Origin: Erysipelotrichaceae bacterium | GTDB lineage: Bacteria > Bacillota_I > Bacilli_A > Erysipelotrichales > Erysipelotrichaceae | Direction of reading: 5' to 3' | Length of the DNA stretch: 48,673 bases | Assembly (NCBI GenBank): GCA_017459795.1 | Contig: JAFUCG010000012.1 | Location: 1-48,673, forward strand | In this document: positions 21,877 to 47,154 of the stretch, piece after piece | Layout of the letters: each line of letters starts with the position of its first letter | Numbering within the stretch: the stretch's first letter is position 1 | Program-made: the position numbers and the translations under genes | Notes under the pieces: generated by a model | Seen by the model: the letters and a program-made list of their open reading frames with translations, nothing else | What the model was told of the DNA's origin: nothing | The model's database searches: none

Positions 21877-21877
21877 T

Positions 21878-22606: not shown

Positions 22607-22745
22607 AACAATGAGCTGGTGTGAAAAACATCAGCTCTTTTTAAAAATTCCGGTAAAGTTTACCGGAATGTCAAAGTGGTAAAGTTTCTCCGGATTGGTG
22701 GTAAACCATGTCCGGAACAGTGGTAAAGTTCCGGCCGGAATAATC

Positions 22746-23852
22746 ATGAAAACAGTATTTATTGTAATCGGAATTATTATTTTGCTCGCTGGAGGTATTG
22801 TGTTAGGTATGCTTAAGAGGACTATCTTAGTTAAACAGCCTGAACTGAATGGAACTCCAGAAATTGGGAAATGGTATCGTATCACACCTGAAGGTACTCA
22901 GTCTTCTGATGGTACCGAATGGCATGGACTGATCAGAGTAGGCAAGGAAAACAAGTTGGCCGTTTACTTTTTCGGAGGAGGAGCCAGCATTACAGGCTAC
23001 ACATCAGAGAGAGGCAAGGAGTTCTTTGCGACTCAGGCAGGTATTCAGGATTTTGTTGCACTTGGAGGGATTTCATCTGATTCTGAAGATAATCCGTTCC
23101 ATGACTGGACATTCCTGGTGCTGCCATACGCTACAGGTGATTTTCATTCAGGAACCGGAGAATATCACTATACCAAAGATGGCTCTGAAAAGACCGTATA
23201 TCATACTGGGTATGATAACTATGCAGCTTTTATTGAGATAGCTAAAAAATATGTTGGCAATCCTGATACTTTGCTGGTGACAGGATTCTCCGCCGGTGGA
23301 TTTGGAACATCTTTACTGGCGGATGATGTTATTGAACGCTTCCCAAGTGCAACAAACATTACCGTATGTGTTGACAGTTCCTTATTACTATATGATGGCT
23401 GGCATGAAACAGCCACTAATCTATGGAAATCACCAAAGAAAATATCCGATCGTCTTACCGGCAATAACATTGTATTAGACAGCCTGACAGCTCTTCATCA
23501 GAAGAGAGGCGACAGTGTAAAAATACTGTTTGACTGTTCTTATCGTGATGATACCCTGCAGCAGTATCAGTCTTATATCAGAAATGAAAAGATGGAGAAA
23601 AACAGGGAAAACGGAGATATTTTCCAAAAAGACCTTAAGAAGATGGTCAGTGATCTTCAGAACAATATTCCAAACGTAAGTATTTATATCTGGAATTATA
23701 ATCAGGACAGCAATACCGGTAACACACAGCATACTATTATTTCCAGCAATCTGTTTGATAAGCTGGAAGATGGCATAAGTGTTGGAGAATGGATAATGAA
23801 TGCAATCAATGGTGAAGTTACCAGTCATGGCCTGCATCTGCTTGATGAATAG
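22746..23852 (+). CDS. Pectin-acetylesterase-like hydrolase, membrane-anchored
   Basis: From the ATG at 22746 the protein has 368 residues. An N-terminal membrane anchor (VFIVIGIIILLAGGIVLGML) is followed by a pectinacetylesterase/Notum-type alpha/beta hydrolase: LAVYFFGGGAS (oxyanion region), Ser182 in GFSAGGFG, an Asp in DCSYRDDT, and a His in NTQHTII. The family removes acetyl or longer acyl groups from carbohydrates or proteins. The IS21 lies directly upstream. Its last A plus the target duplicate form the present ATG, while the original start, RBS and promoter are at 19954-20091. A TTG at 22695 in the IS could also start translation. Expression is probably reduced or IS-driven. Confidence 0.8.
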   Translation: MKTVFIVIGIIILLAGGIVLGMLKRTILVKQPELNGTPEIGKWYRITPEGTQSSDGTEWHGLIRVGKENKLAVYFFGGGASITGYTSERGKEFFATQAGIQDFVALGGISSDSEDNPFHDWTFLVLPYATGDFHSGTGEYHYTKDGSEKTVYHTGYDNYAAFIEIAKKYVGNPDTLLVTGFSAGGFGTSLLADDVIERFPSATNITVCVDSSLLLYDGWHETATNLWKSPKKISDRLTGNNIVLDSLTALHQKRGDSVKILFDCSYRDDTLQQYQSYIRNEKMEKNRENGDIFQKDLKKMVSDLQNNIPNVSIYIWNYNQDSNTGNTQHTIISSNLFDKLEDGISVGEWIMNAINGEVTSHGLHLLDE

Positions 23853-23864
23853 AAAAGAGGAAAT

Positions 23865-24824
23865 ATGAAAAAAGTGGGAAAGGTATTACTGATATTAGGT
23901 ATCATTATTGCAGCTATTGGAACAGGAGCTTACTTCTACATCCGTTCCAAGTTTCCGACAACAGGCGATACGGAAATTACGGAAGGCTACTATAAGAAAT
24001 TCAAATCCGATGGAGAACTGGAAATGAAGTATTCCCAGCTGGGAGAATATGAAGTCTCTTATACCGAGATCAAATCTGACAATGAATCCATTCAGAAGAT
24101 CCGTTTCTGGTATCCGAGTGAACTGGAAACCAACAGCAGACTGTATCCGACGATCATGGTGGTAAATGCGTCCGGTACACCAGCTGCCTCATATGAGCCT
24201 TTCTTTGAAAGACTTGCATCCTGGGGATTTATTGTCATTGGAAACGAAGACGGACAGGACGGTACCGGTGAAACAGCTTCAATAACACTGGATGCGGTAT
24301 TGAACTTAAAGGAAACTGTAATTGCAGGGCGTATCGATAGAGACAACATGGGTATTGTAGGATACTCTCAAGGCGGAGCTGGGGCACTGGCAGCTTTGAG
24401 CGAATATGAAAACGGAAAGATCTATAAGACGGTATTTACCGGCAGTGCAGCATATAAGTTCATGGCTGGCAACTTTGGCTGGAATTACGATGTAACAAAA
24501 ATCACTATTCCATACTTTATGACTGCCGGAACCGGTAAATCTGATGACGCCGGGGTAAAGGATATCACCAAAGAGTTTGCCGGAGTATGTCCTTTAGAGT
24601 CTCTTATTGAAAACTACAACAGTATCTCTGCTGACGTGATGAAGATCAGAGCCCGTGCGACAGGTGCGGAACATGAACAAATGCTGATGAGAACAGATGG
24701 ATACATGACCGCCTGGATGCTATATCATCTTCAGGGAAATGAAGAAGCCGGAAAGGCATTCTTCAGTGACGATGCTGAAATTCTCCATAATACAAACTGG
24801 CAGGATATAGAAAAGAACAGATAA
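23865..24824 (+). CDS. Membrane-anchored alpha/beta hydrolase (dienelactone-hydrolase-like)
   Basis: The 319-residue protein starts with a hydrophobic segment (VLLILGIIIAAIGTGAYFYI, residues 7-26) and so is probably anchored outside the membrane. The core has a beta strand LYPTIMVVNASGTPAASYEPF and nucleophile elbow GYSQGG (near residue 167). A C-terminal AEHEQML holds the likely catalytic histidine. It resembles chlorophyllase/dienelactone-hydrolase or PAF-acetylhydrolase-type esterases. It follows the pectin-acetylesterase-like gene by 12 bases and shares its fate after the IS21 insertion. Confidence 0.75.
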   Translation: MKKVGKVLLILGIIIAAIGTGAYFYIRSKFPTTGDTEITEGYYKKFKSDGELEMKYSQLGEYEVSYTEIKSDNESIQKIRFWYPSELETNSRLYPTIMVVNASGTPAASYEPFFERLASWGFIVIGNEDGQDGTGETASITLDAVLNLKETVIAGRIDRDNMGIVGYSQGGAGALAALSEYENGKIYKTVFTGSAAYKFMAGNFGWNYDVTKITIPYFMTAGTGKSDDAGVKDITKEFAGVCPLESLIENYNSISADVMKIRARATGAEHEQMLMRTDGYMTAWMLYHLQGNEEAGKAFFSDDAEILHNTNWQDIEKNR

Positions 24825-24855
24825 GCCGGAATCGCAGCTGATTCCGGCTTTCTTT
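24823..24855. terminator. Bidirectional terminator between hydrolase and tetR
   Basis: AAGCCGGAAT (24823-24832) pairs with ATTCCGGCTT (24841-24850), a perfect 10-bp stem followed by TCTTT. It closes both convergent genes. Confidence 0.85.
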
Positions 24856-24856
24856 A

Positions 24857-25396
24857 CTATAAGATGTCAATGGATTTTGCCCCGATGATGTGGTTGTTGA
24901 TGTTATCTACTATGATCTTGTTCAGCTCTTCGGGTGTTTCCTTCATTCCGTTGCTGAACCATACATCGATCCATCCGAAGATTCCATAAGCTGCAAAGGC
25001 CTTGGAGTAGAGCGCGTTTGGACCAATATCCGTATTCATATTCAGTCGGTTGCGGATAGCTGACAGAATCATGGAAGACATGTTCTGCTTGTATAAGATT
25101 TTATAAAATGACTGGTTTTTCTGGAAATGCTGAAACAGACTCTGGAAAAAATTATAGATGCTGGCGGAAGGATCTTTTTCAATAGCTTCCGCCCAGTCAT
25201 TGATAAGTGAATTGGTATGATGTTGAATTACTTCTTCCTTTGAATCATAGTTCCTGTAAAAGGATGCTCTTCCTACCTGAGCCTTGTTGCATATTTCACT
25301 TATTGAAATGTCATTTATCTTCTTCTTGCTCATCAGGCTGATGAGCGCTTTTGTTATCTGCTGTTTAACGTATGTGTTCTTTTCCTGTGGATTCAT
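24857..25396 (-). CDS. TetR/AcrR-family regulator of the esterase locus
   Basis: The ATG at 25396 was chosen because AGAGGAG lies 10 bases upstream; a TTG at 25405 would overlap that site. The 179-residue protein has the TetR HTH near its N-terminus (INDISISEICNKAQVGRASFYRNYDSKEEVI) and a helical ligand-binding C-terminal domain. It is transcribed divergently from the metallo-beta-lactamase-fold gene. The intergenic palindromes TGATACA/TGTCTCA recur at the promoter 5 kb away (19954-20031), so it likely controls both transcription units in response to a substrate-derived ligand. Confidence 0.88.
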   Translation of the reverse strand: MNPQEKNTYVKQQITKALISLMSKKKINDISISEICNKAQVGRASFYRNYDSKEEVIQHHTNSLINDWAEAIEKDPSASIYNFFQSLFQHFQKNQSFYKILYKQNMSSMILSAIRNRLNMNTDIGPNALYSKAFAAYGIFGWIDVWFSNGMKETPEELNKIIVDNINNHIIGAKSIDIL

Positions 25397-25397
25397 C

Positions 25398-25476
25398 TGA
25401 TACAAACTCCTCTCGAATGTCTCATTTTCTGTGAAACAATTGTCTCACAGGTTATTTTTATGATACATTTGTCTCA
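25398..25476. promoter_or_regulatory. TetR operators and divergent promoters
   Basis: Three related sites occur: TGATACA/TGTCTCA spaced over 25398-25425, a 20-bp palindrome TGTGAAACAATTGTCTCACA (25430-25449; 9 of 10 pairs) and TGATACATTTGTCTCA (25461-25476). TTGTCT (25440-25445) and ATACAT (25463-25468), 17 bases apart, may be the promoter of the rightward operon, so bound repressor would cover it. Confidence 0.7.
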
Positions 25477-25509
25477 GATAAAAGTCAATATATCTCACAG
25501 GAGAATAAT

Positions 25510-26361
25510 ATGGAAAAAGAAATCAAAAAGACATACTTGGTAAAGAAACTCATTGATGGTGTTTACGGCATCACATCATCAGGAGTTGTCAGCTTTCTGG
25601 TAATTGGAAAAGAGAAAGCCTGTATTGTAGATACAGCTTATGGCTTTGCTGATCTTAAAGCCATGGTTAGAGAAATAACTGATCTTCCGTTAATTGTCTT
25701 TAATACACACGGGCATATTGATCATACCGGAGGCAACTTCTATTTTGATACACCGGTTTACATCCATGAAAAAGATGTTGAATTATATAAAAAGCATAAT
25801 GAACCTGCCTTCCACCGCTACATGGAAAACAGACTGAAAATAATAGACAGAATAATCTTCTGGAGGACTCTGGTACCAAAGCATCCGGAAGATACAGACG
25901 AGGGAAGGGTAAACTTTTCAAACTGGCATTTTGTGAAAGAAGGAGACAGGTTTGATCTTGGCGATCTAACAGCTGAAGTCATTGAGATCCCGGGACATAC
26001 TCAGGGAAGCATAGCCATATACTTCCCGGAAAAGAAACTTCTTATTACATCTGATGGTGCCAATGCAGCAACGTGGCTGTATCTGCCGGAGTCAACTGAT
26101 CTGTCAGAATATATCAACAGTCTGCACAAACTTGAAAAGTATGACTTCAACAGTATTCTTACCGGTCACAGTGTAAAACTGTTCAACCGCGGGGATCTGG
26201 AGAACTGGATAAAGGTTGCCGAGCATCCTGGCTTAAATCACGCAAAGGAAGTTAAAGGTGGAGACTTTGCTCCGGGAGTAAAACCTCTTCAGGTCTGGGC
26301 TGAAGATGATGTAAAACATAAAGGACCATCGATTGTTATTGATCCTGAAAAGATAAAGTAG
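25510..26361 (+). CDS. Metallo-beta-lactamase-fold hydrolase
   Basis: The 283 residues show the MBL fold. Strand-turn SFLVIGKEKACIVDTAYG is followed by the zinc motif THGHIDH (near residues 66-72), a histidine in EIPGHTQGS (near 160), an aspartate in LLITSDGAN and a C-terminal ILTGHS histidine. No signal peptide is present. The family hydrolyses esters, thioesters, lactones or phosphates. Being first in an esterase/glycosidase operon under TetR control suggests a role on an acyl or lactone substrate. The operon continues 9 bases later. Confidence 0.87.
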   Translation: MEKEIKKTYLVKKLIDGVYGITSSGVVSFLVIGKEKACIVDTAYGFADLKAMVREITDLPLIVFNTHGHIDHTGGNFYFDTPVYIHEKDVELYKKHNEPAFHRYMENRLKIIDRIIFWRTLVPKHPEDTDEGRVNFSNWHFVKEGDRFDLGDLTAEVIEIPGHTQGSIAIYFPEKKLLITSDGANAATWLYLPESTDLSEYINSLHKLEKYDFNSILTGHSVKLFNRGDLENWIKVAEHPGLNHAKEVKGGDFAPGVKPLQVWAEDDVKHKGPSIVIDPEKIK

Positions 26362-26370
26362 GCAGATGAT

Positions 26371-27507
26371 ATGAAACTTGAAAAATGGGAAAAAGAACCG
26401 TTATGGCTTAAATTGCTGACACCATATCTTAAGAAAAAGAGATTGCCGGAAATGAAGGGTACTCCTGAAGTAAATAAGTGGGTAAGAATACCATTGGATG
26501 GCTGCGTCGCAGCTAATGGAGAAAAAACATACGCTGACTTCAAACTGGGCAGTGAAAACAAGTTGTTGATCTTCTTCATGGGTGGAGGAGTCAGCTGGAA
26601 TGAGCATACAGCTGCTCATCCGGCATCACTTTATTCAAAAGAAAAGAATTATGGCTTCTATACCATTCACATGGATCTGTTCTCGGATCTGAAACTGAAT
26701 ACAGGCATATTTGCAGAAAGAGAAGATAATCCTTTCCGTAACTGGTCAAAATTGATCTTCATCTATGATACCGGTGATTTCCATGCCGGAACAAATGACT
26801 ATCCATATATAGCTCAGGATGGCAGTAAGAGGATCCTTCACCATCATGGATATACTAATTACCGTAAGGGAATGGAGATTGTCAGAAATATAATTACTGA
26901 ACCTGATTACATTGCTGTTACAGGATGTTCAGGAGGGGCATTCGGTGCAGCGTTGCTGACAGATGATGTAATGGACATTTATCCGGACTGTAAAAATGTT
27001 CTGAGCATAATTGACAGTGGTTTCTTTCCTTTAAAAGGTTGGCATGATATTGCCAAAAATGTCTGGAAGTCACCTGAAAAGATTACAGAAAGAATACACT
27101 CAGATAACATAACGCTTGATGTGTTGCAGACACTGAAAAAGGATAGAAAAGACAAAGTAAAGATTCTTGTCACCTGTTCCATAAAAGATGAAGGGTTATC
27201 AAGAATGATCAATTACATAGAAAATGGTTCTTTCACCTTTACCAGAGAGAGCAGTATCAGGTTTCAGGAATGGTTAGCAGAGTCAGTAAACAAGTTCAAA
27301 ACAACAGTGCCGGGTACAGATATTTATCTGTTTGACTTTGCAGAGAAAAGTCAGAAGAAAAACGGTCTTACCAAGCATTGCATCTTGCAGGATCAAATCT
27401 TCTATGATTACAGAATAGACGGTATCAGCTGTGCAGAATGGATCAGGGCTGAGATGAATGGGAAAAGTGAGAGTTATGGCATGAACCTTTTGGAGGATCA
27501 GAAATGA
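26371..27507 (+). CDS. Pectin-acetylesterase-like hydrolase, cytoplasmic
   Basis: The 378-residue protein is a paralogue of the product at 22746: the same LLIFFMGGGVSWNEH region, DTGDFHAGTNDYPY, nucleophile in TGCSGGAFGAALL, Asp in TCSIKDEG and His in LTKHCI. It lacks the N-terminal membrane segment, so it should work inside the cell while its relative works outside. Its stop overlaps the next ATG by 4 bases. Two location-specific copies in one locus fit sequential deacylation before and after uptake. Confidence 0.8.
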   Translation: MKLEKWEKEPLWLKLLTPYLKKKRLPEMKGTPEVNKWVRIPLDGCVAANGEKTYADFKLGSENKLLIFFMGGGVSWNEHTAAHPASLYSKEKNYGFYTIHMDLFSDLKLNTGIFAEREDNPFRNWSKLIFIYDTGDFHAGTNDYPYIAQDGSKRILHHHGYTNYRKGMEIVRNIITEPDYIAVTGCSGGAFGAALLTDDVMDIYPDCKNVLSIIDSGFFPLKGWHDIAKNVWKSPEKITERIHSDNITLDVLQTLKKDRKDKVKILVTCSIKDEGLSRMINYIENGSFTFTRESSIRFQEWLAESVNKFKTTVPGTDIYLFDFAEKSQKKNGLTKHCILQDQIFYDYRIDGISCAEWIRAEMNGKSESYGMNLLEDQK

Positions 27508-28466
27508 GTAGATTTGTAAATGACATGGTGAGTAAAGTATTGCAGAAAGTAATTTACTCAAAAGTATATAAAGGACATAAGCCAAATGAGTGGAAACCGT
27601 GGAACACTCCGGAAACCATTCGTCTGGACAACGGCAAGGTAATGTTCAGAGATGTCTGTTATGGAAACAGTTACCCAAACAGTTATGCAGATATCTGGCT
27701 GCCTGATGACACCAATAAAAAGTGGCCGGTTGTAGTTTACCTGCATGGTGGCGGATTTATCTTTGGTAATAAAAGCAGTGGGGATCCGCTGTCTGCCGGA
27801 GAAGAAAAACAAGGCAAGTTGCAAAAGATCATTGAAGAAGGATATGTACTGGTGAATGCCGATTATGCATTGGCACCTCAATACCGTTTCCCAAGTCAGA
27901 TCAGGCAATTGGATGAGTTGTTCAGGTTTTTGCTTGATAACGCTGATAAATACAATCTGGATATGAACAGAGTATGCCTGTCAGGCGGTAGTGCCGGCGC
28001 AAATATGACGGAAATCTATGCAGCGTGTGTATGCAATAAAGAATATGCCGATCTGCTGAAAGTAGATCCGGTCATGACGAAGGAAAAACTGAAAGTTCTG
28101 GCAATTGATGAGGCAGCGCTTGATGCGAGTGTTTATGACCGCAGAATGTATATAATGCTGGGATGTGCGACCGGTGCTAAAAGAAACACACCGCAAGACG
28201 TTAAACAGATCAATGCCAAGACATTCATCAAGGATTCTTTTATCCCCAGCTGGATCAATGCCTCAAACGAAGGTGGGGAAAATGGTTTCTTCATTACTGA
28301 AGCCAGAGGGCTTAAGAAGATTCTGGACGAGAAGAAGGTAGATAATGACATGGTTTACTTCCCGGGTGAGAATCTGCCGCATGGCTACATGGACAATGTT
28401 GGAAGAGAAAAACATGCTGATGAAGCATTTAACAGAATGATGTCATTTATAAAGAAACACATATAG
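27504..28466 (+). CDS. HSL-type alpha/beta hydrolase (esterase)
   Basis: The 320-residue protein carries HGGGFIFG (near residue 78), the oxyanion-hole motif of the hormone-sensitive-lipase family, and nucleophile elbow GGSAGANM (near 158). A C-terminal LPHGYMDN holds the catalytic histidine. A lid-like insertion lies between. No signal peptide. It starts inside the previous gene (ATGA) and is followed by the symporter gene, so it belongs to the operon. Likely substrate: acyl esters on imported glycosides. Confidence 0.85.
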   Translation: MSRFVNDMVSKVLQKVIYSKVYKGHKPNEWKPWNTPETIRLDNGKVMFRDVCYGNSYPNSYADIWLPDDTNKKWPVVVYLHGGGFIFGNKSSGDPLSAGEEKQGKLQKIIEEGYVLVNADYALAPQYRFPSQIRQLDELFRFLLDNADKYNLDMNRVCLSGGSAGANMTEIYAACVCNKEYADLLKVDPVMTKEKLKVLAIDEAALDASVYDRRMYIMLGCATGAKRNTPQDVKQINAKTFIKDSFIPSWINASNEGGENGFFITEARGLKKILDEKKVDNDMVYFPGENLPHGYMDNVGREKHADEAFNRMMSFIKKHI

Positions 28467-28477
28467 GAGGAAAGAAA

Positions 28478-29974
28478 ATGGCAAAGGAAAAAGTTAATAA
28501 GCATCCTGACTGGAGATTGAGCAGTAAGGAAAGAATGTATTACTACATGGCAGACATTGGCAGACTGTTTGGCTTTGGAACCTTCAGTCTCTACATGACA
28601 CCGTTCCTGGCATTAAGAGGAGTTAACCTTTCAGTATTAGCCGGTGTAATGCTTGTTTTGAAAATCATTGATGCAGTTGATGATGTAGTCTTTGGCTATA
28701 TTATTGACCGTCTCAAGATTACGGAAATCAAGGCCTTTAAGAAAATTACAGGTGATGGCAAATACCTTCCATGGTACAGACTGACTTTTACCCTGTTTGC
28801 GATATTTACTATGGCCTTCTATCTGATGCCTGCCAATATTTCACAGACACAGAAGATGATCTGGTTCATCGTGACATATCTGCTCTATGATTTCTCATGT
28901 ACTTTGGCAGAAACACCGATCAACTCACTGATCATGACCTTAACAGATAATACAGAAGAGAGAAACCATATCCTCATGGTTAAGGGAATCATTACGGTTG
29001 TGTCAGCTGTTCTGCTAGGCGTTGTGTTGAATCTGCTGGTTGACCCGGTCAATGGTCCCGGGCTGTCATTCACTCAGGTATCAATCGGCTTAATGATTGC
29101 CTGTATCATCATCATGGTGCCAATGGCTTTAAAAGGAAAAGAATATAACACTTCTCTGAAGAATACGGATGGAGAAGAAAATGAAACATATACACTCAAG
29201 GACATGTGGAACTGTGTTAAGGTCAACAAGTTCATGATGATATTCCTGATCTCATCACTGATCACAGGGGTTACCGCGACATCTTCAGCTGTCAGTTCAT
29301 TGATCTCATTCTATCTGTTTGATGGTAATACCATGATCCTCTCCTTACCGGTACTCATTGCCTTTGTTCCGGCTATGATCCTGAATTTAAAGGCTGATAA
29401 GATTGCTGAGAAATTCGGCAGAAGGAACTCTCTTGTTATCTTAGGCGTAGTTTTTGGTGCAATGAACATCATACAGTATCTGGTTGGATATAAGAATATC
29501 GTAGTGTTGATCATCTTAGGTGTCGTTGCTGGAATTGCCAATTCAGTAAGAGCCATTTTCATGAACTTCATTGCTCCTGATACCATCGAATACACCCGTT
29601 ATAAAACCGGCAAAGACTGTTCAGGTATCTTCTATGCTTTGAATTCATTTGTCACTAAAGCAGTTGGCAGCGTCGGCGCCAGCCTTGGTTTACTGATTAT
29701 GTCTCTGTATCATTGGAATCCTGTTCAGGCTGAAAGCTTTGAAGAATTACTGGCCATGGGTATCCAGGAAGGCCAGGCTGCATATCAGTCCCCATTAGCC
29801 ATCCATGGCATGTGGGTAGTATATGCCTTAATTCCAGGTATCGGTTATCTTTTATCAGCCCTTGTCATGTGGTTCTACAAACTGAGAGACAAGGACGCTG
29901 AGTTAATGGCCAAGTGTAATGCCGGTGAGATCACCAGAGAAGAATGTGAAACAATGTTAAGCAGGAAATACTAA
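28478..29974 (+). CDS. GPH-family sugar:cation symporter (MFS)
   Basis: The 498-residue membrane protein has about 12 hydrophobic helices, an N-terminal DIGRLFGFGTFSLYMTPFLALRG and the cytoplasmic VDDVVFGYIIDRLKITEIKAFKK segment that marks the glycoside-pentoside-hexuronide:cation family. Such carriers import oligosaccharides or glycosides with Na+ or H+. AGGAGG stands 7 bases before ATG. It is the only transporter in the operon, so it defines uptake of the operon's substrate. The stop overlaps the GH2 start (TAATG). Confidence 0.9.
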   Translation: MAKEKVNKHPDWRLSSKERMYYYMADIGRLFGFGTFSLYMTPFLALRGVNLSVLAGVMLVLKIIDAVDDVVFGYIIDRLKITEIKAFKKITGDGKYLPWYRLTFTLFAIFTMAFYLMPANISQTQKMIWFIVTYLLYDFSCTLAETPINSLIMTLTDNTEERNHILMVKGIITVVSAVLLGVVLNLLVDPVNGPGLSFTQVSIGLMIACIIIMVPMALKGKEYNTSLKNTDGEENETYTLKDMWNCVKVNKFMMIFLISSLITGVTATSSAVSSLISFYLFDGNTMILSLPVLIAFVPAMILNLKADKIAEKFGRRNSLVILGVVFGAMNIIQYLVGYKNIVVLIILGVVAGIANSVRAIFMNFIAPDTIEYTRYKTGKDCSGIFYALNSFVTKAVGSVGASLGLLIMSLYHWNPVQAESFEELLAMGIQEGQAAYQSPLAIHGMWVVYALIPGIGYLLSALVMWFYKLRDKDAELMAKCNAGEITREECETMLSRKY

Positions 29975-32292: not shown

Positions 32293-33160
32293 AAAGGCTA
32301 TATTCAATGCCCGTTTTCACAGAGTAAACAGACATTATTCCACAGATCCAATTGTAGGTGAAAGATTTTATATAAAAAGGGAAGGTAAAGAAGCTGTTGA
32401 AGTCCTGCTTTACAGACCTGATGTAAAAGAAAATGCTCCTGTCTTTGTACAGATCCACGGCGGCGCCTGGGTTGGAATGGATGCCGTAGATGATGATGAA
32501 TACTGTCATAGATTGAGTAAAGATCTTGAAGCATTTGTGGTAAATGTCAATTACAAAAGACTTTATGATAAAAGCTTTCCATACCCTCAGCAGGAAGTTG
32601 TTGATACGGTGAAATGGTTGAAGAAAAATGCAGGAGAATTGGGTATAGATCCTGACAGAATCATTCTTTCCGGCGGCAGTGCCGGCGGTCATCTTACGGC
32701 TGGCAGTGCCATCATGCTGGCAAAGGAAGGTGTTGAGATTGCCGGGCAGATCATGGAAGTTCCGTTTTTGGACTTTACTGGCAGTATACCGATCGACTTT
32801 CCAGAAGGAAATAAACTCTATGATATGATGTTTGAATTATATCCGCCTGAGATGCCCTTGGACAGCGAAGAGCTTTCACCGGCCGCAAGCATCAGTGAAG
32901 AGACACTTAATAAACTTTCCAAGGCTGTAGTAATTGTATGCGGTAAGGATCCTCTGCATCCTCAGGGAATCCATTACGCAGAATTGTTGAAGAAGCACGG
33001 AAAGCTGCTTGACCTTAAGATGTATGAGAATGGTTACCATGGTTTTGGAACAGACAAACCGGAGGAAATGGAAGAACAGAATCAGTTAAGAGAAGACTGC
33101 TACAAATATAAGGTTGAAAAGGCTAAAGAACTGTTTCAATTGGAAGAAGGAAGTAAATAA
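32270..33160 (+). CDS. HSL-type alpha/beta hydrolase (esterase)
   Basis: The 296-residue protein has IHGGAWVGM (near residue 64) as oxyanion motif, GGSAGGH (near 140) as nucleophile elbow, an Asp in CGKDPLHPQG and His in YHGFG. Its start lies inside the GH2 gene with AGAGG upstream. No signal peptide. It belongs to the same broad family as the gene at 27504 but has shorter loops, so it may take a different acyl group. Confidence 0.85.
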   Translation: MKLLTRIKKAIFNARFHRVNRHYSTDPIVGERFYIKREGKEAVEVLLYRPDVKENAPVFVQIHGGAWVGMDAVDDDEYCHRLSKDLEAFVVNVNYKRLYDKSFPYPQQEVVDTVKWLKKNAGELGIDPDRIILSGGSAGGHLTAGSAIMLAKEGVEIAGQIMEVPFLDFTGSIPIDFPEGNKLYDMMFELYPPEMPLDSEELSPAASISEETLNKLSKAVVIVCGKDPLHPQGIHYAELLKKHGKLLDLKMYENGYHGFGTDKPEEMEEQNQLREDCYKYKVEKAKELFQLEEGSK

Positions 33161-33162
33161 CA

Positions 33163-34188
33163 ATGAAAAGTGAATTAATAGTTTTAAATGAAGAGAGAGA
33201 TGTTACATTAACAGCCTATATTCAGGATGTTAAAGGTGAATTCGGCTTTGATAAACGCCCAGCCATGCTTGTTCTTCCAGGTGGCGGTTATGCCATGTGC
33301 TCAGACAGAGAAGCTGACCCTGTAGCTTTGACTTATCTGCAGGCTGGCTATCAGGCCTTCATCTTAAGATATACGACTAACAGAAAAGGAAAATGGCCAA
33401 TGCCTTTGGAAGACTATGAACAGGCAATGGAAATAATAAAAGACAGAAGCGAAGAATGGGGCATCGATAAGGATAAAATCGTTGTTTCCGGCTTCTCAGC
33501 TGGCGGACATCTGGCCGCTGTAGCCGCTACCCAGGCGAAAAACAGACCGGCAGCTGCCGTACTGGTATACCCGGCTATTCTGAAAGACATCGTTGACATG
33601 TGTCAGCCGGACATGCCTTATCCATACCAGCATGTTACTCATGAAACATGCCCGTGTTTCCTGGTCGCATGCCGTGATGACAAGACAGTTGACATTACAA
33701 ATACATTGAAAATGGAATTAGCCCTGGCTGAAAACAACATTCCATTTGAAAGCCATATCTATTCCTTTGGCGGTCATGGCTTCTCCACAGGAGAAGACTG
33801 GATCGTTACCAATGGTGTATCTGACAGAGTACCTGACTGGACTAAAGACAGTGTAGGCTGGTTGAAGGAGATCCTTGGCAAACTAACTTATCATGGTTTT
33901 GAAGAACCTGAACAGAGAGTGTCATTAAACGCTGACTTTGCACCTGTATTAAGCGTTGCCTGTTCCTTAGGCCATATCCGCAAGCAGAATGAAGAAGTAC
34001 AGAATCTGTTGAAGCCAATGTACGACGGGATGGAAATGGTTGCCAAGGCCAGAGGCTATCAGTTGGAAGGGCTGTACGCTGTCTTAAGTAAGAATACAGT
34101 CAGTGAGATCCTTGAGATGTTACAGATGCCTGCTAAGAAAGTTAAGGAAATAGATACAGTACTTCATGGAATGATAAATGAGTTATAG
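33163..34188 (+). CDS. Acetylxylan-esterase-like hydrolase with extra C-terminal helical domain
   Basis: The 341-residue product has an alpha/beta hydrolase domain of about 245 residues (LVLPGGGYAMCSDREADPV, nucleophile in SGFSAGGHLAA near residue 112, Asp in ACRDDKTVD, His in GGHGFS). About 85 residues follow that form a helical domain (FAPVLSVACSLGHIRKQNEE, then VSEILEMLQMPAKKVKEI). This tail is not part of the hydrolase fold and I do not recognise it; it could be an oligomerisation or regulatory module. The gene follows the previous stop by two bases. Confidence 0.8.
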   Translation: MKSELIVLNEERDVTLTAYIQDVKGEFGFDKRPAMLVLPGGGYAMCSDREADPVALTYLQAGYQAFILRYTTNRKGKWPMPLEDYEQAMEIIKDRSEEWGIDKDKIVVSGFSAGGHLAAVAATQAKNRPAAAVLVYPAILKDIVDMCQPDMPYPYQHVTHETCPCFLVACRDDKTVDITNTLKMELALAENNIPFESHIYSFGGHGFSTGEDWIVTNGVSDRVPDWTKDSVGWLKEILGKLTYHGFEEPEQRVSLNADFAPVLSVACSLGHIRKQNEEVQNLLKPMYDGMEMVAKARGYQLEGLYAVLSKNTVSEILEMLQMPAKKVKEIDTVLHGMINEL

Positions 34189-34199
34189 AGGTGAATGTC

Positions 34200-36635
34200 A
34201 TGCAGCGATTTACAGACGAAAATATCAGAGAATTTGAAATAAGACATAATGAAATACTTAGGAGGATTGCTCCTGAATGCACGGTTCTTTTAAAGAAAAA
34301 TGGTGACTTTCCTTTAAACGGACCATGTAAAGTTGCCTTATATGGTAACGGGGCCAGAGAAACAATCAAGGGTGGTACAGGATCAGGTGATGTGAACGTT
34401 CGTCACTTTGTTACAGTTGAAGAAGGATTGGAGAATGCCGGTTTTGAAGTTACATCAAAATCCTGGATGGATCAGTATGCAGCCTGTAAAGCCGGGGAAA
34501 CTGTCAGGTTTTATCAGAAGATAAGGGAAGAGGCAGAAAGAGATAAAAAGTCTGTTCTTGCAGCTGCTTTGGGAAAAACACCTGACGAGCCGGAATATGA
34601 TCTGCCGGTTGATGCGGATGCTGATGTCTGTATTTATGTGTTAGCCCGTAACAGCGGTGAAGGTTCTGACAGACAGATGAAGAAAGGTGACTTTCTGTTA
34701 ACTGATATTGAAGTAAGAGATATTATTCAATGTGCTGACAAATATGATAAGTTCATGCTTGTGCTGAATGTCGGAGGACCGTTAGATATTTCACCTGTCA
34801 AGGATGAGGTTGATAATATTCTGTTACTGGGGCAGCTGGGAACAGTTACTGGCGAAGTTTTAGCGGACATTGTATTAGGAAAAGCTAATCCATCTGGAAA
34901 ACTGACAGCTACCTGGGCAAAGGCTGAAGACTACACTGTTATTATGGATTATGACCTGAATGATACCTGTTATAAGGAAGGCATTTATGTTGGATACCGC
35001 AATTTTGATGCAGGTGAAGCAAAGCCGGTATTTCCGTTTGGCTATGGCTTAAGCTACAGCGAATTCAATACTGAAATCATTAATTCTGATCTAACTGACA
35101 GTATTGTGACTGTCAGTGTCAGAATAACCAATACAGGTAAATACCCGGGCAAGAAAGCAGTTATTCTGTATTACAGCGCTCCACAGGGCAAACTGAGTAA
35201 ACCTGCCAGAGAGATAGGAACATATGCCAAAAGTGGCGAACTGAATCCTGGCGAGAGTGAAGAAATAGTTCTGAAACTGCCTTTAGAAAACATGGCTTCC
35301 TACGATGAAGGAAAACATGCATGGATATTGGAAAAGGGAGACTATCTGATCACAATTGATGAAACAAAAGCATGTGCAGTCAGATTAGATGATGAAACAC
35401 GTGTATCTTCAGCCAACTGTCTGAATATCAGTACGGGATTTGAAGACAGGAAGGAACATACTGATCCTGCCAGTGTAAATGGAATTCCTTTATTTACTGT
35501 TAATGCAGACAGCCTGACAGATATCGGTCATTTTGATAGAAGCAGGATTGCTTATCCTGAAAGAAAGGAAATTGATCTTTCCTCATTTACCGATGAGGAA
35601 TTAATAAGAACATGTATTGGCCGATACGATCCTAACAGCGGTACCTCCATTATCGGTAATGCCGGTAACGTTGTAGCCGGTGCGGCTGCCGAAAGTGCTG
35701 ATTTCCTAAGCGACAAAGGTTTTGGCAAGCTTGTACTTGCTGACGGACCAGCCGGACTAAGACTGGCAACCAGTTATATTCTGAATGAGAAAGGTGCCTT
35801 CGGTAATGAATTTGCGTCAGCTGAAAACATCGTTCAGTTCCTGGATGAACCGCTGAAATCTGCTTTACAGGCAAAAATAGACACGATGAAAAAAATAAGT
35901 GAATCTGCTCAGAAATACTATCAGTTTACAACAGCGATTCCAATCGGCACAGCCTTAGCACAGTCATTTAATCCAGAAGTTGCTGAAGTGTGCGGGGATA
36001 TTGTTGGTGAGGAAATGGGAATATACGGTGTCAATGTATGGCTTGCTCCGGCTCTTAACATTCAGAGATCACCGTTATGCGGCCGTAACTTTGAGTACTA
36101 TTCTGAAGATCCGGTCGTATCAGGATTAACAGCTGCTGCAATAGTCAGAGGTGTACAGAAACATGATAAGTGTGCCGTAACCATCAAGCACTTTGCCTGC
36201 AATAACCAGGAATATAACCGTTTCGGTTCCAACAGTATTATTTCTGAAAGAACATTAAGAGAAATATATCTTAAGGGCTTTGAAATCTGCATTAAGCAGT
36301 CTGCTCCTAAATGTATCATGTCTTCGTACAATCTGTTAAACGGTACCCATACCGCAAATCATTATGATCTGTTAACAACAGTTCTAAGAGATGAATGGGG
36401 TTTTGACGGTGTTGTCATGACTGACTGGGGCACAACTGATGACGGCTTTAACATGGGGATCCATGGACCAAGTGATTCCGCATTATGTATTATGGCAGGG
36501 AATGACTGGATCATGCCGGGCAATAATAAGAACTATGTAAGAATAACTGAAGCTCTTGAAAAGGGAGAATTAAACAGAGAAGATCTGGAAAAATGTGCCG
36601 GAAGGATCCTGGCACTTAGTAAGGAAATAGCATGA
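34200..36635 (+). CDS. GH3 beta-glucosidase with permuted domain order
   Basis: The ATG at 34200 was used (GAGGTG 6 bases upstream; the GTG at 34191 has no such site). The 811-residue enzyme is GH3 with its two halves swapped. The GH3 C-terminal alpha/beta sandwich comes first (VALYGNGARETIKGGTGSG, LVLNVGGPLDIS), then a fibronectin-III-like domain (residues about 300-400), and last the TIM barrel with nucleophile Asp742 (GVVMTDWG) and the RSPLCGRNFEYYSEDP signature. This order is known in Butyrivibrio and Ruminococcus beta-glucosidases. It hydrolyses beta-glucosides (or xylosides) in the cytoplasm. Confidence 0.9.
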   Translation: MQRFTDENIREFEIRHNEILRRIAPECTVLLKKNGDFPLNGPCKVALYGNGARETIKGGTGSGDVNVRHFVTVEEGLENAGFEVTSKSWMDQYAACKAGETVRFYQKIREEAERDKKSVLAAALGKTPDEPEYDLPVDADADVCIYVLARNSGEGSDRQMKKGDFLLTDIEVRDIIQCADKYDKFMLVLNVGGPLDISPVKDEVDNILLLGQLGTVTGEVLADIVLGKANPSGKLTATWAKAEDYTVIMDYDLNDTCYKEGIYVGYRNFDAGEAKPVFPFGYGLSYSEFNTEIINSDLTDSIVTVSVRITNTGKYPGKKAVILYYSAPQGKLSKPAREIGTYAKSGELNPGESEEIVLKLPLENMASYDEGKHAWILEKGDYLITIDETKACAVRLDDETRVSSANCLNISTGFEDRKEHTDPASVNGIPLFTVNADSLTDIGHFDRSRIAYPERKEIDLSSFTDEELIRTCIGRYDPNSGTSIIGNAGNVVAGAAAESADFLSDKGFGKLVLADGPAGLRLATSYILNEKGAFGNEFASAENIVQFLDEPLKSALQAKIDTMKKISESAQKYYQFTTAIPIGTALAQSFNPEVAEVCGDIVGEEMGIYGVNVWLAPALNIQRSPLCGRNFEYYSEDPVVSGLTAAAIVRGVQKHDKCAVTIKHFACNNQEYNRFGSNSIISERTLREIYLKGFEICIKQSAPKCIMSSYNLLNGTHTANHYDLLTTVLRDEWGFDGVVMTDWGTTDDGFNMGIHGPSDSALCIMAGNDWIMPGNNKNYVRITEALEKGELNREDLEKCAGRILALSKEIA

Positions 36636-38953
36636 TCAGTGCGGAAGCAAAATGGATATGTCATCCGAAAGATGGCAAAAATAATCCATTAATACCTGTA
36701 TTCAAGAAGTCCTTTGAAGTAGATAAAGGACTTCTTTCCGCCATATTAAGCATCAGTGCACATGGTATTTACCATACACAGATAAATGGGAAAGAAGTAA
36801 CTGACCATCTTTTTACCCCGGGTTTTACCAGTTATTATCACCGCATTCAGTATCAGGAATATGACATTACGGATATGTTGAATGAAGGTGAGAATCAGTG
36901 GCTTACTATGGTAGGGGACGGCTGGTGGAGATGGCATAATAATTTTGGATATACATTGGCTCTTACAGGCTCAATAACCCTGCAATATGAAGATGAAACA
37001 GTTGTAATATCAACAGATGAATCGTTTGATGTTACCACTGGAAAACTGCAGTCCTCGGATTACCTGAAAGGTGAAAGATATGATAACCGAATTGAATTAA
37101 CAGACTGGGTAAAGGCTGTTGAATGCCGTGAACACACAGAAGGAATGTTAATTCCTAATGAAGGAGTACCGGTTAAGGAACATGAAGTGTTTGAAGGAAA
37201 GCCATTTAGAGACGCTTCGGGCAATCTGGTAATTGATTTTGGTCAGAACATTGCCGGCTATGTTTCCATGAGGTTTTTTCATACTGCTCCTGGGCAGATC
37301 ATTCGCCTGAAACATGGGGAGGGATTGAATCTCGATGGTAATTTCTCCACCTCCAACTGCGATCTGGGAATGAATCCATTCCAGGAAATCACCTACATCT
37401 GTAAGGGAGCCGAAGTTGAAGAATATAAGCCATGGTTTACCTGGTTTGGTTTCCGCTACCTTCTGGTTGAAGGCATTGAAAACGCTGATTTCCAAGCCAT
37501 CGCTGTTTATTCAGACATGGAAGAAACCGGTGATTTCAGGTGTTCCAATGAACTGATCAACAAGCTTGTGGAAAATGCCAGATGGTCACAGAAAGGTAAC
37601 TTCCTGGATGTAGCAACTGACTGTCCAACCAGGGAAAAGAATGCCTGGACAGGTGATACAGCAATCTACTGCCGTACGTCTGCTTATTTCATGAATGTTA
37701 AGTCATTTTATGAAAAATGGCTGAAGGATCAGTCCATTGAACAGTATGCCAGCGGCAAACTGGGAATAACATTCCCATCAACTTCCAGCGTTCATAACAT
37801 TGAGGAATTAAGAGAAGTTCAGAAAACAAGACCGGACATGGCGTTGGCAGGACCGATTGGTGACGGAAACATCGGCGAAGATTCAGTCGGCTGGGGAGAC
37901 AGTTCAGTAGTTATCCCTTATCAGCTTTATCAGATGTATGGCGATAAGAAGATACTGGAAAACCAGTATGACACAGCTAAGAGATGGGTCGATTTCTCTC
38001 TTACCTGCATGAAGGAAGTAAATCCTTTATACAGGGACAGGGAATGGTATGTAAACGGCGAAGGTGATCTGATCTATGATACCAGGTTCCATTATGGTGA
38101 ATGGAATGAACCGTTACCTCCTTCAAAGGAAGTAATTGAACTGTTTGCCAGTGGCGGTAAGCCGGAAGACTTTGTCAGATACATGGCCAGATATGGCAAA
38201 CCGGAAACTGCTACAGCCTGCACTAAATACAGCTGTGATCTGTTAGGATACATGGCTGAGATACTGGGAAAGACAGAAGAGGCTGAATTCTATAGGAAAA
38301 AAGCTGATCAACTGAAATACTCTTATGACAGATATCTGATTTCCAAAGAAGGCATAATTCAGGAAGGTCATCAGGCTGCCTATGTACGCGCTTTGGCTTA
38401 TGACATGGTAAGTGCAGAAAAGAAACCTCTGGTAATAAATCAGCTGAAAAAGGAAATTGAAAAAGCTGATTATCATCTGAACACCGGGTTCCTTTCTACG
38501 GGAATACTGTTACCGGTATTGTGTGATAACGGATTAACGGAAGAGGCTTTTAAGATTCTTGAGCAGAAGACAGCCCCAGGCTGGCTGTATCCAATTACTC
38601 TGGGTGCTACTACGATGCTGGAAAACTGGAACGGACTGAATCAGTTCAGCGCCAGTTTCAATCATTATTCTCTTGGTGCCGTCTGTCAGTTCCTGTTTGA
38701 ATATGTGGCAGGAATCAGACCAGTACAACCGGGGTTCAGTGAATTTGAAATCAGACCTGTGATTGGAGGAAGCCTCCAATGGGCACAGGGAGAATATGAA
38801 ACAGAATATGGAAGGATAACTTCTTACTGGCAGAAAGAAGATGAGCATGTCAGATTCAGGTGCAATGTACCGGAAAAGACAATATGTCATCTCTGCTTAC
38901 CTGATGGTACGCAGAAAAATCTATCTGCAGGAAGTTATGAATTTGTTATATAG
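36632..38953 (+). CDS. GH78 alpha-L-rhamnosidase
   Basis: The 773-residue protein matches GH78. N-terminal beta domains (TPGFTSYYHRIQYQEYDIT, DYLKGERYDNRIE) lead to the (alpha/alpha)6 barrel with the signature DCPTREKNAWTGD, where Glu335 is the general acid. TTMLENWNG contains the general base Glu664. A C-terminal beta domain follows. No signal peptide. It removes terminal alpha-L-rhamnose from glycosides such as flavonoid rutinosides or saponins. It starts inside the GH3 stop (ATGA), so the two are coupled, which fits a rhamnosyl-glucoside substrate. Confidence 0.93.
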   Translation: MISAEAKWICHPKDGKNNPLIPVFKKSFEVDKGLLSAILSISAHGIYHTQINGKEVTDHLFTPGFTSYYHRIQYQEYDITDMLNEGENQWLTMVGDGWWRWHNNFGYTLALTGSITLQYEDETVVISTDESFDVTTGKLQSSDYLKGERYDNRIELTDWVKAVECREHTEGMLIPNEGVPVKEHEVFEGKPFRDASGNLVIDFGQNIAGYVSMRFFHTAPGQIIRLKHGEGLNLDGNFSTSNCDLGMNPFQEITYICKGAEVEEYKPWFTWFGFRYLLVEGIENADFQAIAVYSDMEETGDFRCSNELINKLVENARWSQKGNFLDVATDCPTREKNAWTGDTAIYCRTSAYFMNVKSFYEKWLKDQSIEQYASGKLGITFPSTSSVHNIEELREVQKTRPDMALAGPIGDGNIGEDSVGWGDSSVVIPYQLYQMYGDKKILENQYDTAKRWVDFSLTCMKEVNPLYRDREWYVNGEGDLIYDTRFHYGEWNEPLPPSKEVIELFASGGKPEDFVRYMARYGKPETATACTKYSCDLLGYMAEILGKTEEAEFYRKKADQLKYSYDRYLISKEGIIQEGHQAAYVRALAYDMVSAEKKPLVINQLKKEIEKADYHLNTGFLSTGILLPVLCDNGLTEEAFKILEQKTAPGWLYPITLGATTMLENWNGLNQFSASFNHYSLGAVCQFLFEYVAGIRPVQPGFSEFEIRPVIGGSLQWAQGEYETEYGRITSYWQKEDEHVRFRCNVPEKTICHLCLPDGTQKNLSAGSYEFVI

Positions 38954-38964
38954 GGAGAATCATC

Positions 38965-41394
38965 ATGGAAAAATTACCTTACAGTTTTAATGACAGTAAA
39001 AGAGAGATTAGCTTTAGCCGCTTTGATCTGCCTTCACCTTGGATAAACTATCTTTCCAATGGCAGAATGCATGCCTTTGTGTCACAGGCCGCAGGAGGAA
39101 TGGTTTGGTGGCTTTCACCGATGTTATTCAGAGTGACCAGATACCGTTTCTTTAACTTGCCGATAGATTCTCCAGGCTTTTATATTTACATCAGAATGGA
39201 AGACGGAACTGTCTGGTCACCCGCTTTCCGTCCATGTGATACGAAAGTATACAAAAGAAGTTCCTCACATCACCCAGGCTATTCAGTATTTGAGGCTGAA
39301 AAGGATGGAATAAAGGCAACTCTTAAACTTTACATGGCGCAGGATGTTGATTCTCTCATCTGGGAAGTAACTGTTTCCAACCTGAAAGGTGAAACCGTTA
39401 ACTGTGATGTATTTGCCTATGTGGAACTTTCACAGTTTCTTGCTCAGCAGGAAAACATACTGGGATATTATCTGAAATGGAATACCAGAGCTGTATTTGA
39501 GGAAAGTCTACAGGCAATCACTTATGCCTATACAGCCTGGATGCATCCTAGAAAGGATGATTCGCCGCTGGTTTATTTTGCTTCAGATGTAAAAACAGAT
39601 TCGTGGTGCTGTAACCGAGATGCTTTCTGTGGAAATTATCGAGATGAGAGAAATCCGGTTGAAGTAGAAAAGGGCATTCTTTCCAATACAGAGTTACATG
39701 GCGGTGAACCATGTGGGGCATTACATAATCATCTGAGTATTGAAAAAGGACAGAGTAAGACAGTCCATTACTTTCTTGGCGTAACAAAGGGAGCACTTGA
39801 AGATTATGATAAGGCCATTAATGAAACTGAAGAAACGCTGAAACTGTTACGTAAAGACGGCTTTGCTGAAGAACAGTTTGAAAAACTGCAGGATTGGTGG
39901 GGTAATCAGCTGGATGTTTTCCAGTGTGAGATACCAGATGAAGAGGCTCAGAGAGAAATCAATATCTGGAATCCGGTTCAGAGTGTTCATACAGCCCGCT
40001 TATCAAGATCAATCAGTTCTGATGCTTCCGGTGTCAGAGGAATCGGATTCCGTGATACGGCACAGGACATGCTGGCTCAGGCATACAGGAAACCTGAGTG
40101 GGCAAAGGAAATGTTAAAGTATCTGGCTTCCCAGCAACTGGAAGACGGACATTCCGTTCATACCTCCTGGCCTGAAGACAGACGTCCTGCACAGGATATT
40201 ACCAGATCAGATGACCATATTTGGATGGTATACCTGGCTTATGCGATTGCGGCAGAAACAGGTGATCTGAGTTTTCTCGATGAGGAGATTCCTTATCTGA
40301 ACAAAGACCTGGTCACAGCTGGAGCAAAAGCTACCTTATGGCAGCATCTTCTTAAGGGAATGGAGTTTACGGAAAATCATCTGGGTGAACACGATCTGCC
40401 GCTGATCCTTTTCTCGGACTGGAATGATCATCTTGGACCTTTCGGCAGAAAAGGCAAGGGAGAAAGCATCATGGTATCCCAGCAGTACATCTATGCCTTA
40501 AGGCAGTTAACTGAGATGGCTGAATTACGTAATGATGATGAACATGTCCGCTTATTCAATGAACTGATACATAAACAGGAACAAGCCCTGGAGAATTATG
40601 CCTGGGATGGCGAATGGTTCTTAAGAGGTCTGGATGATGAAGCAAAACCTATAGGAACACACAGTGATGAACATGCCAGGATCTGGCTCAACGCCCAAAG
40701 CTGGATGGTCATTTCCGGAGCCTGTAAGGACAGGCAGATTCAGGCCATGGATTCAGCAGCCAGAGAACTGGATACCGGAATGGGATTACTTTTAAATACA
40801 CCTGGTTATCCAGGCTGGCCAAGTAAGGAAGCTGCCATGGTAAACGGCTTACCAGCTGGTTATTCCGAAAACGGCGGTGTCTTCTGTCAGGCAAACTGCT
40901 GGGCAATCATGGCTGAAGCATTATTAGGCAGAGGTGATGTTGCCTGGAAGTATTATCAGCAGCTAATACCAAATAACGTGATAAAAAAGATTGGTGTTGA
41001 TAAATATCATGGTGAAGCATATGCATACTGTTCTACCTTGTTAGGCAAGGATAATCCGGAATTCGGCAGGGCCTGCGTATCTCAGGTAACCGGTACGGCT
41101 GCCTGGATGGATGTTGTATCCACACAGTATCTGCTTGGTATCCGTCCAACGTTAAAGGGACTGTTGATTGACCCAAGCATTCCATCTTCATGGGATGGGT
41201 TCAATGTTGTCAGAGAATATCGCGGTAGAACTCTTAAAATAAGAGTACATAATCCGGAACATGTTCAGCATGGTGTAAAGAAAATGACAGTCAATGGACT
41301 TAATGTGAATTACGATAATGCTTATGTGACTGAAGAAATGTTGTCGGGAAAAGAAAACATAATAGATGTATTCATGGGATTCACCAGAGGTTAA
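38965..41394 (+). CDS. GH94 glycoside phosphorylase
   Basis: The 809-residue protein shows the GH94 layout. An N-terminal beta sandwich (SPMLFRVTRYRFFNLPIDSP) is followed by a linker and an (alpha/alpha)6 barrel with RGIGFRDTAQDMLA, EDRRPAQDITRSDDHIWM and the DWND motif at 485-488 that carries the catalytic acid. A C-terminal beta domain closes it. GH94 enzymes split beta-linked disaccharides with phosphate to sugar 1-phosphate. Specificity (cellobiose, laminaribiose, cellobionate, or other) is not clear. As last gene of the operon it may recover energy from a glucose disaccharide core left by the other enzymes. Confidence 0.85.
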   Translation: MEKLPYSFNDSKREISFSRFDLPSPWINYLSNGRMHAFVSQAAGGMVWWLSPMLFRVTRYRFFNLPIDSPGFYIYIRMEDGTVWSPAFRPCDTKVYKRSSSHHPGYSVFEAEKDGIKATLKLYMAQDVDSLIWEVTVSNLKGETVNCDVFAYVELSQFLAQQENILGYYLKWNTRAVFEESLQAITYAYTAWMHPRKDDSPLVYFASDVKTDSWCCNRDAFCGNYRDERNPVEVEKGILSNTELHGGEPCGALHNHLSIEKGQSKTVHYFLGVTKGALEDYDKAINETEETLKLLRKDGFAEEQFEKLQDWWGNQLDVFQCEIPDEEAQREINIWNPVQSVHTARLSRSISSDASGVRGIGFRDTAQDMLAQAYRKPEWAKEMLKYLASQQLEDGHSVHTSWPEDRRPAQDITRSDDHIWMVYLAYAIAAETGDLSFLDEEIPYLNKDLVTAGAKATLWQHLLKGMEFTENHLGEHDLPLILFSDWNDHLGPFGRKGKGESIMVSQQYIYALRQLTEMAELRNDDEHVRLFNELIHKQEQALENYAWDGEWFLRGLDDEAKPIGTHSDEHARIWLNAQSWMVISGACKDRQIQAMDSAARELDTGMGLLLNTPGYPGWPSKEAAMVNGLPAGYSENGGVFCQANCWAIMAEALLGRGDVAWKYYQQLIPNNVIKKIGVDKYHGEAYAYCSTLLGKDNPEFGRACVSQVTGTAAWMDVVSTQYLLGIRPTLKGLLIDPSIPSSWDGFNVVREYRGRTLKIRVHNPEHVQHGVKKMTVNGLNVNYDNAYVTEEMLSGKENIIDVFMGFTRG

Positions 41395-41410
41395 AACTAC
41401 CACTGATTCA

Positions 41411-41441
41411 GGAGGCTATCAGACAAATAGCCTTCTTTTTA
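41411..41441 (+). terminator. Terminator of the glycosidase operon
   Basis: GGAGGCTAT (41411-41419) pairs with ATAGCCTTC (41427-41435) and is followed by TTTTTAT. It lies 17 bases after the GH94 stop. The next 100 bases up to the promoter at 41546 hold nothing recognisable. Confidence 0.85.
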
Positions 41442-42893: not shown

Positions 42894-42947
42894 GGCCATT
42901 ATATCCATTATGGATATGAAAAATATAATAATTAGAAAGGAGAAAAT

Positions 42948-44429: not shown

Positions 44430-44431
44430 TA

Positions 44432-45928: not shown

Positions 45929-45954
45929 TTAAACAATATGATATAAAATTGGAA

Positions 45955-47153: not shown

Positions 47154-47154
47154 T

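Follow-up and report, generated by a model that had tools for sequence, protein, structure and literature searches.

The Xua system of Ruminiclostridium cellulolyticum imports acylated arabinoxylo-oligosaccharides, whose acetyl, feruloyl and p-coumaroyl groups are removed in the cytoplasm (PMC11127375). Acetylated β-mannan loci with RiCE2/RiCE17-type esterases are described from Roseburia and Faecalibacterium (PMC7666174, PMC8262883). The locus analysed here occupies positions 22746-41394 of a 48,673-nt stretch (hereafter the window), which is contig C166 (JAFUCG010000012.1) of a 2.0-Mb metagenome-assembled genome (MAG) of an Erysipelotrichaceae bacterium (host genome G000, 212 contigs); host and relatives are known as MAG assemblies. 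We read it, with moderate confidence, as a locus under TetR control through which ruminant-gut Bacillota would utilize small rhamnose-containing glycosides decorated with esters, import being followed by deacylation. Ester groups decorate many phenolics and saponins of forage, and to our knowledge ester removal from forage compounds by ruminant-gut bacteria is poorly known; the block would represent a compact enzyme set with a dedicated regulator for such acylated compounds. The literature yielded nothing directly relevant on a locus of this kind, on loci for the deacylation of phenylethanoids or acylated flavonoids, or on rumen GH78, GH94 and esterases in combination.

Gene content and predicted breakdown route

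The block encodes, in order, two esterases (PAE1, pectinacetylesterase; AB1, alpha/beta hydrolase), a TetR-family regulator, an MBL-fold enzyme (MBL), the esterases PAE2 and AB2, a GPH-family symporter (GPH), the glycoside hydrolase (GH) family 2 enzyme GH2, the esterases AB3 and AB4, and enzymes of families GH3, GH78 and GH94 (Table 1). All genes lie on the forward strand except that of TetR, and the intergenic gaps from MBL to GH94 are short or negative (overlaps). The sequence-only reading had counted six alpha/beta or pectinacetylesterase-like hydrolases, two anchored and four cytoplasmic, beside an MBL-fold enzyme, one GPH symporter and GH2, GH3, GH78 and GH94 enzymes lacking signal peptides. 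Pfam matches, hydropathy and orthologues bear out the count and topology of these six serine esterases, and the other assignments are likewise confirmed. Hydropathy profiles place a strong N-terminal hydrophobic segment in PAE1 and AB1, with the same topology in their orthologues; AB2, AB3, AB4, PAE2 and all the GHs have neither a signal peptide nor such a segment, and the orthologues examined agree. Signal-less GHs, signal-less esterases and a sugar importer, the hallmark of import-then-deacylate handling, are combined here in one operator-defined unit.

The catalytic serine, aspartate and histidine of the PAEs (S187, D273 and H336 of PAE2) do not vary among 34 homologues, and the nucleophile and histidine of AB1-AB4 are likewise invariant in aligned orthologues. 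The nearest solved structure to AB4 is MGS-M1 (4q3k). Both PAE1 and PAE2 exceed the gathering score of PF03283 and belong by their triad, and by the Notum-like fold of the PAE2 model, to the PAE/CE13-Notum family. The AlphaFold model of PAE2 (pLDDT 89.6) has the Wnt deacylase Notum as its best solved match (E about 1e-13, TM-score about 0.5-0.6); a phmmer search of PAE2 against PDB sequences gave no true relative, Notum being found by fold search alone. The MBL model, of moderate confidence (pLDDT 78.6), has the MBL fold and matches many MBL-fold enzymes without pointing to a function. The GH2 and GH78 acids listed in Table 1 and the aspartates of the GH94 DWND motif are invariant in aligned orthologues (12 sequences for GH78). 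Four domains, a D..E..D acid cluster and a downstream catalytic glutamate identify the GH78 as a predicted rhamnosidase, and the catalytic-domain span of the cluster GH78s is longer (1,185 nt) than that of most other intact GH78 matches from the same search (about 1,000-1,130 nt). GH3 is domain-permuted and otherwise resembles solved β-glucosidases.

The rumen is rich in acetylated, rhamnosylated polymers. Together with the family name of the PAEs and the resemblance of GH2 to β-galactosidases, this would suit an acetylated oligosaccharide released from a rhamnose-containing polymer, such as rhamnogalacturonan I (RG-I), arabinogalactan-protein side chains or a bacterial exopolysaccharide. Such an origin is unlikely, as the block has no lyase, GH28, GH105 or secreted endo-enzyme, carries a single GPH rather than an ATP-binding cassette (ABC) importer, and is accompanied in relatives by a tannase/feruloyl-esterase-family member. 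No GH88 or GH105 was found in the whole of G000 or in nine other cluster genomes (10 of the 18 cluster genomes lack them), which argues against lyase-derived uronides and places the block outside the lyase-dependent RG-I/uronide loci. A pectin/RG-I reading taken from the PAE name was dropped on account of the missing GH88/GH105 in the host.

For the small acylated rhamnosyl glycosides that we favour, breakdown would begin outside the cell, where the surface-anchored PAE1 and AB1 may trim part of the acyl groups. The GPH symporter would then import di- to oligoglycosides that are still acylated, and cytoplasmic PAE2, AB2, AB3 and AB4, joined in relatives by the tannase/feruloyl-esterase-family enzyme, would strip off acetyl groups and probably aromatic acyl groups as well. 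GH78 would next release L-rhamnose, GH2 and GH3 would release β-linked hexoses, and GH94 would phosphorolyse a β-glucoside to glucose 1-phosphate, while the rhamnose would enter the rhaA-rhaD-rhaB pathway. The sequences themselves show the genes of the block, their catalytic residues and topology, the regulon sites, the recurrence elsewhere and the rhamnose genes, present or linked; import in the still-acylated form, the order of the steps, the acyl types and the origin of the substrate from plant glycosides are what we infer.

RhaA, RhaD and RhaB are encoded together (rhaA-rhaD-rhaB) on another contig of the host (G000:C164), and the cluster GH78 is the sole GH78 found in G000, G277 and G278. 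All eight family genomes with a PAE2 orthologue have RhaD, whose overall frequency is 67 of 272 (P about 1e-5, with no adjustment for relatedness). In locus L039, rhaB, an isomerase gene and rhaD lie directly upstream of GPH, while in genome G024 an equivalent rhamnose operon and a second GH78 follow the cluster GH78 at a distance of a few kb. Of the earlier proposal, an acylated glycoside, the part that finds support is intracellular handling of a substrate that contains rhamnose and bears esters, in view of the invariant GH78 acids, the sole GH78, the rhamnose genes and the tannase-family enzyme of relatives. The restriction to a single compound is not established, and neither are the proposed classes (flavonoid, triterpenoid or resin glycoside), which remain guesses.

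A FucI/AraA-superfamily-like protein with weak Pfam matches (L039:7392-8807, P0003) sits with rhaB and rhaD. Such a protein also occurs in G054, G024, G019, G080, G036, G052, G272-G275 and G279, in genomes without a PF06134 RhaA match (tested for the relatives grouped as g7), and is a candidate third type of L-rhamnose isomerase; a 2013 survey lists RhaA and RhaI as the sole types (PMC3870299). The absence of RhaA from the g7 genomes had been considered as evidence against rhamnose and was dropped, a non-RhaA isomerase adjoining rhaB and rhaD there.

Table 1. Features of the locus and its left flank (positions in the window).
Feature	Position	Strand	Remarks
IS21-type element	20092..22746	+	istA 20344-21876, istB 21878-22606, both intact
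Native PAE1 promoter/operator/ribosome-binding site and first ~10 codons	19960..20091	+	severed from PAE1 by the IS element
PAE1, membrane-anchored pectinacetylesterase/Notum-like esterase	22746..23852	+	PF03283, N-terminal transmembrane segment; frame read from internal ATG
AB1, membrane-anchored PETase-like alpha/beta hydrolase (GYSQG)	23865..24824	+	PF12740, transmembrane segment, S168 and H270 invariant
TetR-family regulator, divergent from main operon	24857..25405	-	PF00440 (TetR_N) and PF14278 (TetR_C_8)
Two putative operator palindromes	25432-25447 and 25461-25476		between TetR and MBL; starts 29 bp apart
MBL-fold metallohydrolase, HxHxDH motif complete	25510..26361	+	PF00753
PAE2, cytoplasmic pectinacetylesterase/Notum-like esterase	26371..27507	+	PF03283, invariant triad, AlphaFold model
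AB2, cytoplasmic BD-FAE/HSL-like esterase (HGGG, GGSAG)	27504..28466	+	PF20434, S163 and H293 invariant
GPH-family sugar symporter (MFS_2), the block's only transporter	28478..29974	+	PF13347; TIGR00792 subthreshold
GH2, β-galactosidase-like, no signal peptide	29974..32292	+	E382 and E495 invariant
AB3, cytoplasmic HSL-like esterase (GGSAG)	32270..33160	+	PF07859; S137, D227 and H257 invariant
AB4, cytoplasmic BD-FAE-like acetyl-esterase-type hydrolase (GFSAG)	33163..34188	+	PF20434; S112 and H205 invariant
GH3, β-glucosidase-like, domain-permuted	34191..36635	+	C-terminal domain precedes N-terminal catalytic domain
GH78, predicted α-L-rhamnosidase	36632..38953	+	four Pfam GH78 domains; D330, E335, D342 and E664 invariant
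GH94 glycoside phosphorylase	38965..41394	+	GH94 domains, catalytic Asp
Terminator-like hairpin closing the block	41410..41436	+	

Past the closing hairpin, a separate locus (41730-48006) encodes a MupG-like 6-phospho-N-acetylmuramidase, a phosphotransferase system EIIBC, a GH1, an SIS protein and a PfkB kinase. A gene resembling a type I restriction specificity subunit lies at 17106-18392 on the reverse strand.

The putative TetR operator and the IS21-type insertion

The TetR gene, which the sequence-only reading had missed along with the operators and the IS21-type insertion, is divergent from MBL, and its orthologues hold the same position. The palindrome TGANACANNTGTNTCA occurs in two copies in the TetR-MBL intergenic region, with a third copy at 20016. 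With at most one mismatch allowed, 0.09 matches are expected by chance in the window as against six found (three sites, both strands). The motif TGADACAWWTGTHTCA has three sites in the whole 2.0-Mb host genome, all at the block (reversed-pattern control: one). In nine related genomes the palindrome matches fall in the cluster, with one extra site (G052:C147:26789) just upstream of a PAE fragment; orthologous loci carry the same operator ahead of PAE1, and the g7 genomes have a further pair ahead of GH2. Because the palindrome is confined to the cluster's genes in the host and these nine relatives, PAE1-AB1, TetR and MBL-GH94 are predicted to form one dedicated regulon under a putative operator whose function is judged from conservation. 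No such sites were found in the Clostridia loci checked, and the divergent regulators of two Clostridia loci examined are of the AraC type. The operator might be put to use in a biosensor that reports the substrate of the locus.

A remnant of the system is seen in L059 (G213:C3:1-20000), where PAE1-AB1-TetR with operators is followed by a GH94 fragment (89% identity over 105 aa), as if the intervening genes had been deleted.

The left edge of the block has been invaded by an IS21-type insertion sequence (IS) with terminal repeats TGATTATTCCGG and CCGGAATAATCA, a 7-bp target duplication (TGAAAAC) and a terminator-like hairpin (22613-22637) 3′ of istB. The native PAE1 region retains the operator TGATACAATTGTCTCA at 20016-20031 and the native ATG at 20060. 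When the flanks are joined without the IS element, an in-frame N-terminus (MKQKKRNNMKTVFIVIG...) results, which can be aligned with the L061 orthologue and has a ribosome-binding site and operator just upstream. The present PAE1 frame starts at an in-frame internal ATG with no evident ribosome-binding site. Since the IS element splits PAE1 from its promoter, operator and ribosome-binding site, PAE1-AB1 is probably poorly expressed and uncoupled from the regulon in this strain, and the anchored esterase pair is therefore better seen as characteristic of the system than of this genome.

Recurrence in ruminant-gut genomes and the nature of the substrate

A search for the same gene set in other gut genomes, suggested in the earlier reading, finds it both in relatives of the host and among Clostridia MAGs from the ruminant gut. 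A PAE2 orthologue (73-77% identity) is present in seven more family genomes of the 272 searched; among the nine genomes of the host genus, the host alone has a PAE2 match. A GPH scan of genome contigs, which reaches close relatives only, returned 20 loci, mostly in ruminant-labelled Clostridia/Oscillospiraceae MAGs (sheep, goat and RUG rumen bins), at 60-88% identity, with L042 (48%) as the one distant exception. The closest GPH (88%) is found in a ‘Solobacterium’ MAG (L025). The gene set and much of its order are kept in other family genomes and in more than 10 Clostridia MAGs, the shared core AB2-GPH-GH2-AB3-PAE-AB4-GH3-GH78 being present in most sufficiently long loci, with GH94, PAE1 and AB1 nearby in several. 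Patchy presence combined with conserved content suggests horizontal spread of the locus. Given the IS element at the left edge and a MAG of 212 contigs, chance association or assembly error could be considered; it is refuted, to the point of being negligible, by the many independent assemblies that share this content, mostly in the same order, and by the dedicated operators.

The g7 clusters differ from that of the window in several respects. Adjoining GPH, they add a cytoplasmic 474-aa tannase/feruloyl-esterase-family protein (PF07519, 218 bits), absent from the window, whose nearest solved relatives are fungal FaeB-type feruloyl esterases and MHETase; they also have one more PAE, the third, and most of them a second AB3. 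Their GPH has diverged (46-47% identity to that of the window, as against 70-73% between the window and most Clostridia), while for the other genes compared the g7 clusters are equally close to the window or closer. We read this as a joint change of transporter and acyl range, and the PF07519 gene supports aromatic acyl groups in at least the g7 variant.

The number and type of esterases also vary, with about six in the window and some Clostridia loci and eight or nine in the g7 clusters. This variation, and the different GPH of the tannase-family-bearing clusters, would be expected of a generalist locus serving a range of glycosides that differ in acylation, rather than one heavily acylated compound, or of a de-esterifying detoxification or scavenging module, with each esterase dedicated to its own acyl group or position. 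We regard that alternative as a serious one, if the less probable. Nearly all clusters of sufficient length retain AB2, AB3, AB4, GH3 and GH78, which instead suggests a common core substrate.

The window GH94 has the β-supersandwich and catalytic domains of its family, a full-length match, the DWND motif and a conserved -1 site, and its donor is probably a β-glucosyl unit. It is almost equally close to cellobiose (432 bits) and chitobiose (404 bits) phosphorylases. A long loop after the catalytic aspartate, present in the clostridial cellobiose phosphorylases of the PDB and in a host paralogue (G000:C108), is absent from the window GH94 and two cluster orthologues, and the window enzyme is about 33% identical to the host's other, cellobiose phosphorylase-like GH94. 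On account of the missing loop and of that second enzyme, a reading as cellobiose phosphorylase was rejected. GH94 also includes solabiose (Glc-β-1,3-Gal), cellobionic acid, laminaribiose and 1,2-β-oligoglucan enzymes (PMC8741936). With several acceptors in use in the family, the β-linked glucose disaccharide core proposed earlier is not established.

Alternatively, the sugar part could be a branched triose of Rha, Glc and Gal, as in Solanum glycoalkaloids; a solabiose-type GH94 phosphorylase would then work beside a GH78 that takes off Rha and a GH2 that takes off Gal. The set of three enzymes would suffice, solabiose phosphorylase is a known GH94 activity (PMC8741936), and on its acceptor side the window enzyme does not resemble cellobiose phosphorylase. 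The acceptor is not predictable from sequence, and no GH94 was seen in the g7 clusters read downstream of GH78. We know of no heavy acylation of Solanum glycoalkaloid glycans, and consider this triose very improbable.

Several observations count against small acylated rhamnosyl glycosides as the common substrate. No evidence was found for GPH transporters carrying acylated sugars, and the rhamnose genes lack the cluster's operator. The RhaD enrichment is uncorrected for kinship, and at genus level it stands at 3/3 as against 14/59 (P about 0.01). MBL has no assigned role in the pathway, and the Clostridia clusters yielded no copy of it. In G054 and G024, the g7 clusters with a downstream flank that was read, GH78 is followed by a ROK-family kinase instead and no GH94 was seen, and the substrate may therefore differ between lineages. 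A bolder form of our reading is tentative, and we would hold it rather doubtful: a previously undescribed, transferable ruminant-gut regulon for aromatically and acetyl-acylated rhamnosyl glycosides, in which GH94 would use a new acceptor (e.g., β-glucosyl-rhamnose or β-glucosyl-galactose) and the Notum-like PAEs would be cytoplasmic glycoside deacylases.

Comparison with known systems

Gram-positive gut Roseburia and Faecalibacterium deacetylate imported oligosaccharides, a likeness to the handling proposed here; their loci differ in having mannan GHs, different esterase families and no rhamnosidase. Compared with the cellobiose, chitobiose and solabiose phosphorylases of GH94, the window enzyme shares the DWND motif and -1 site and differs in the loop. 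PAE1 and PAE2 match the model of the CE13/PAE-Notum family (PF03283), and the modelled structure of PAE2 is nearest to Notum; unlike Notum, the window PAEs are bacterial, one anchored and one cytoplasmic, at about 15% identity. The block gives such bacterial PAE/Notum-like esterases a natural context, in a recurrent unit of six to nine esterases.

Xua is the closest working precedent, with cytoplasmic GHs and cytoplasmic acetyl- and feruloyl/p-coumaroyl-esterases in one operon acting on imported acylated oligosaccharides. It relies on an ABC importer, a two-component regulator, arabinoxylan enzymes and two esterases, whereas the locus described here and its relatives have a GPH symporter, TetR, a predicted rhamnosidase with β-glycosidases and GH94, and between six and nine esterases, which belong to other families. 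With neither an ABC importer nor xylan-active GHs in the block, and with GPH and GH2, GH3, GH78 and GH94 in their place, the locus is not a member of the Xua type; it appears to resemble Xua in its working, import-then-deacylate handling being the best supported interpretation.

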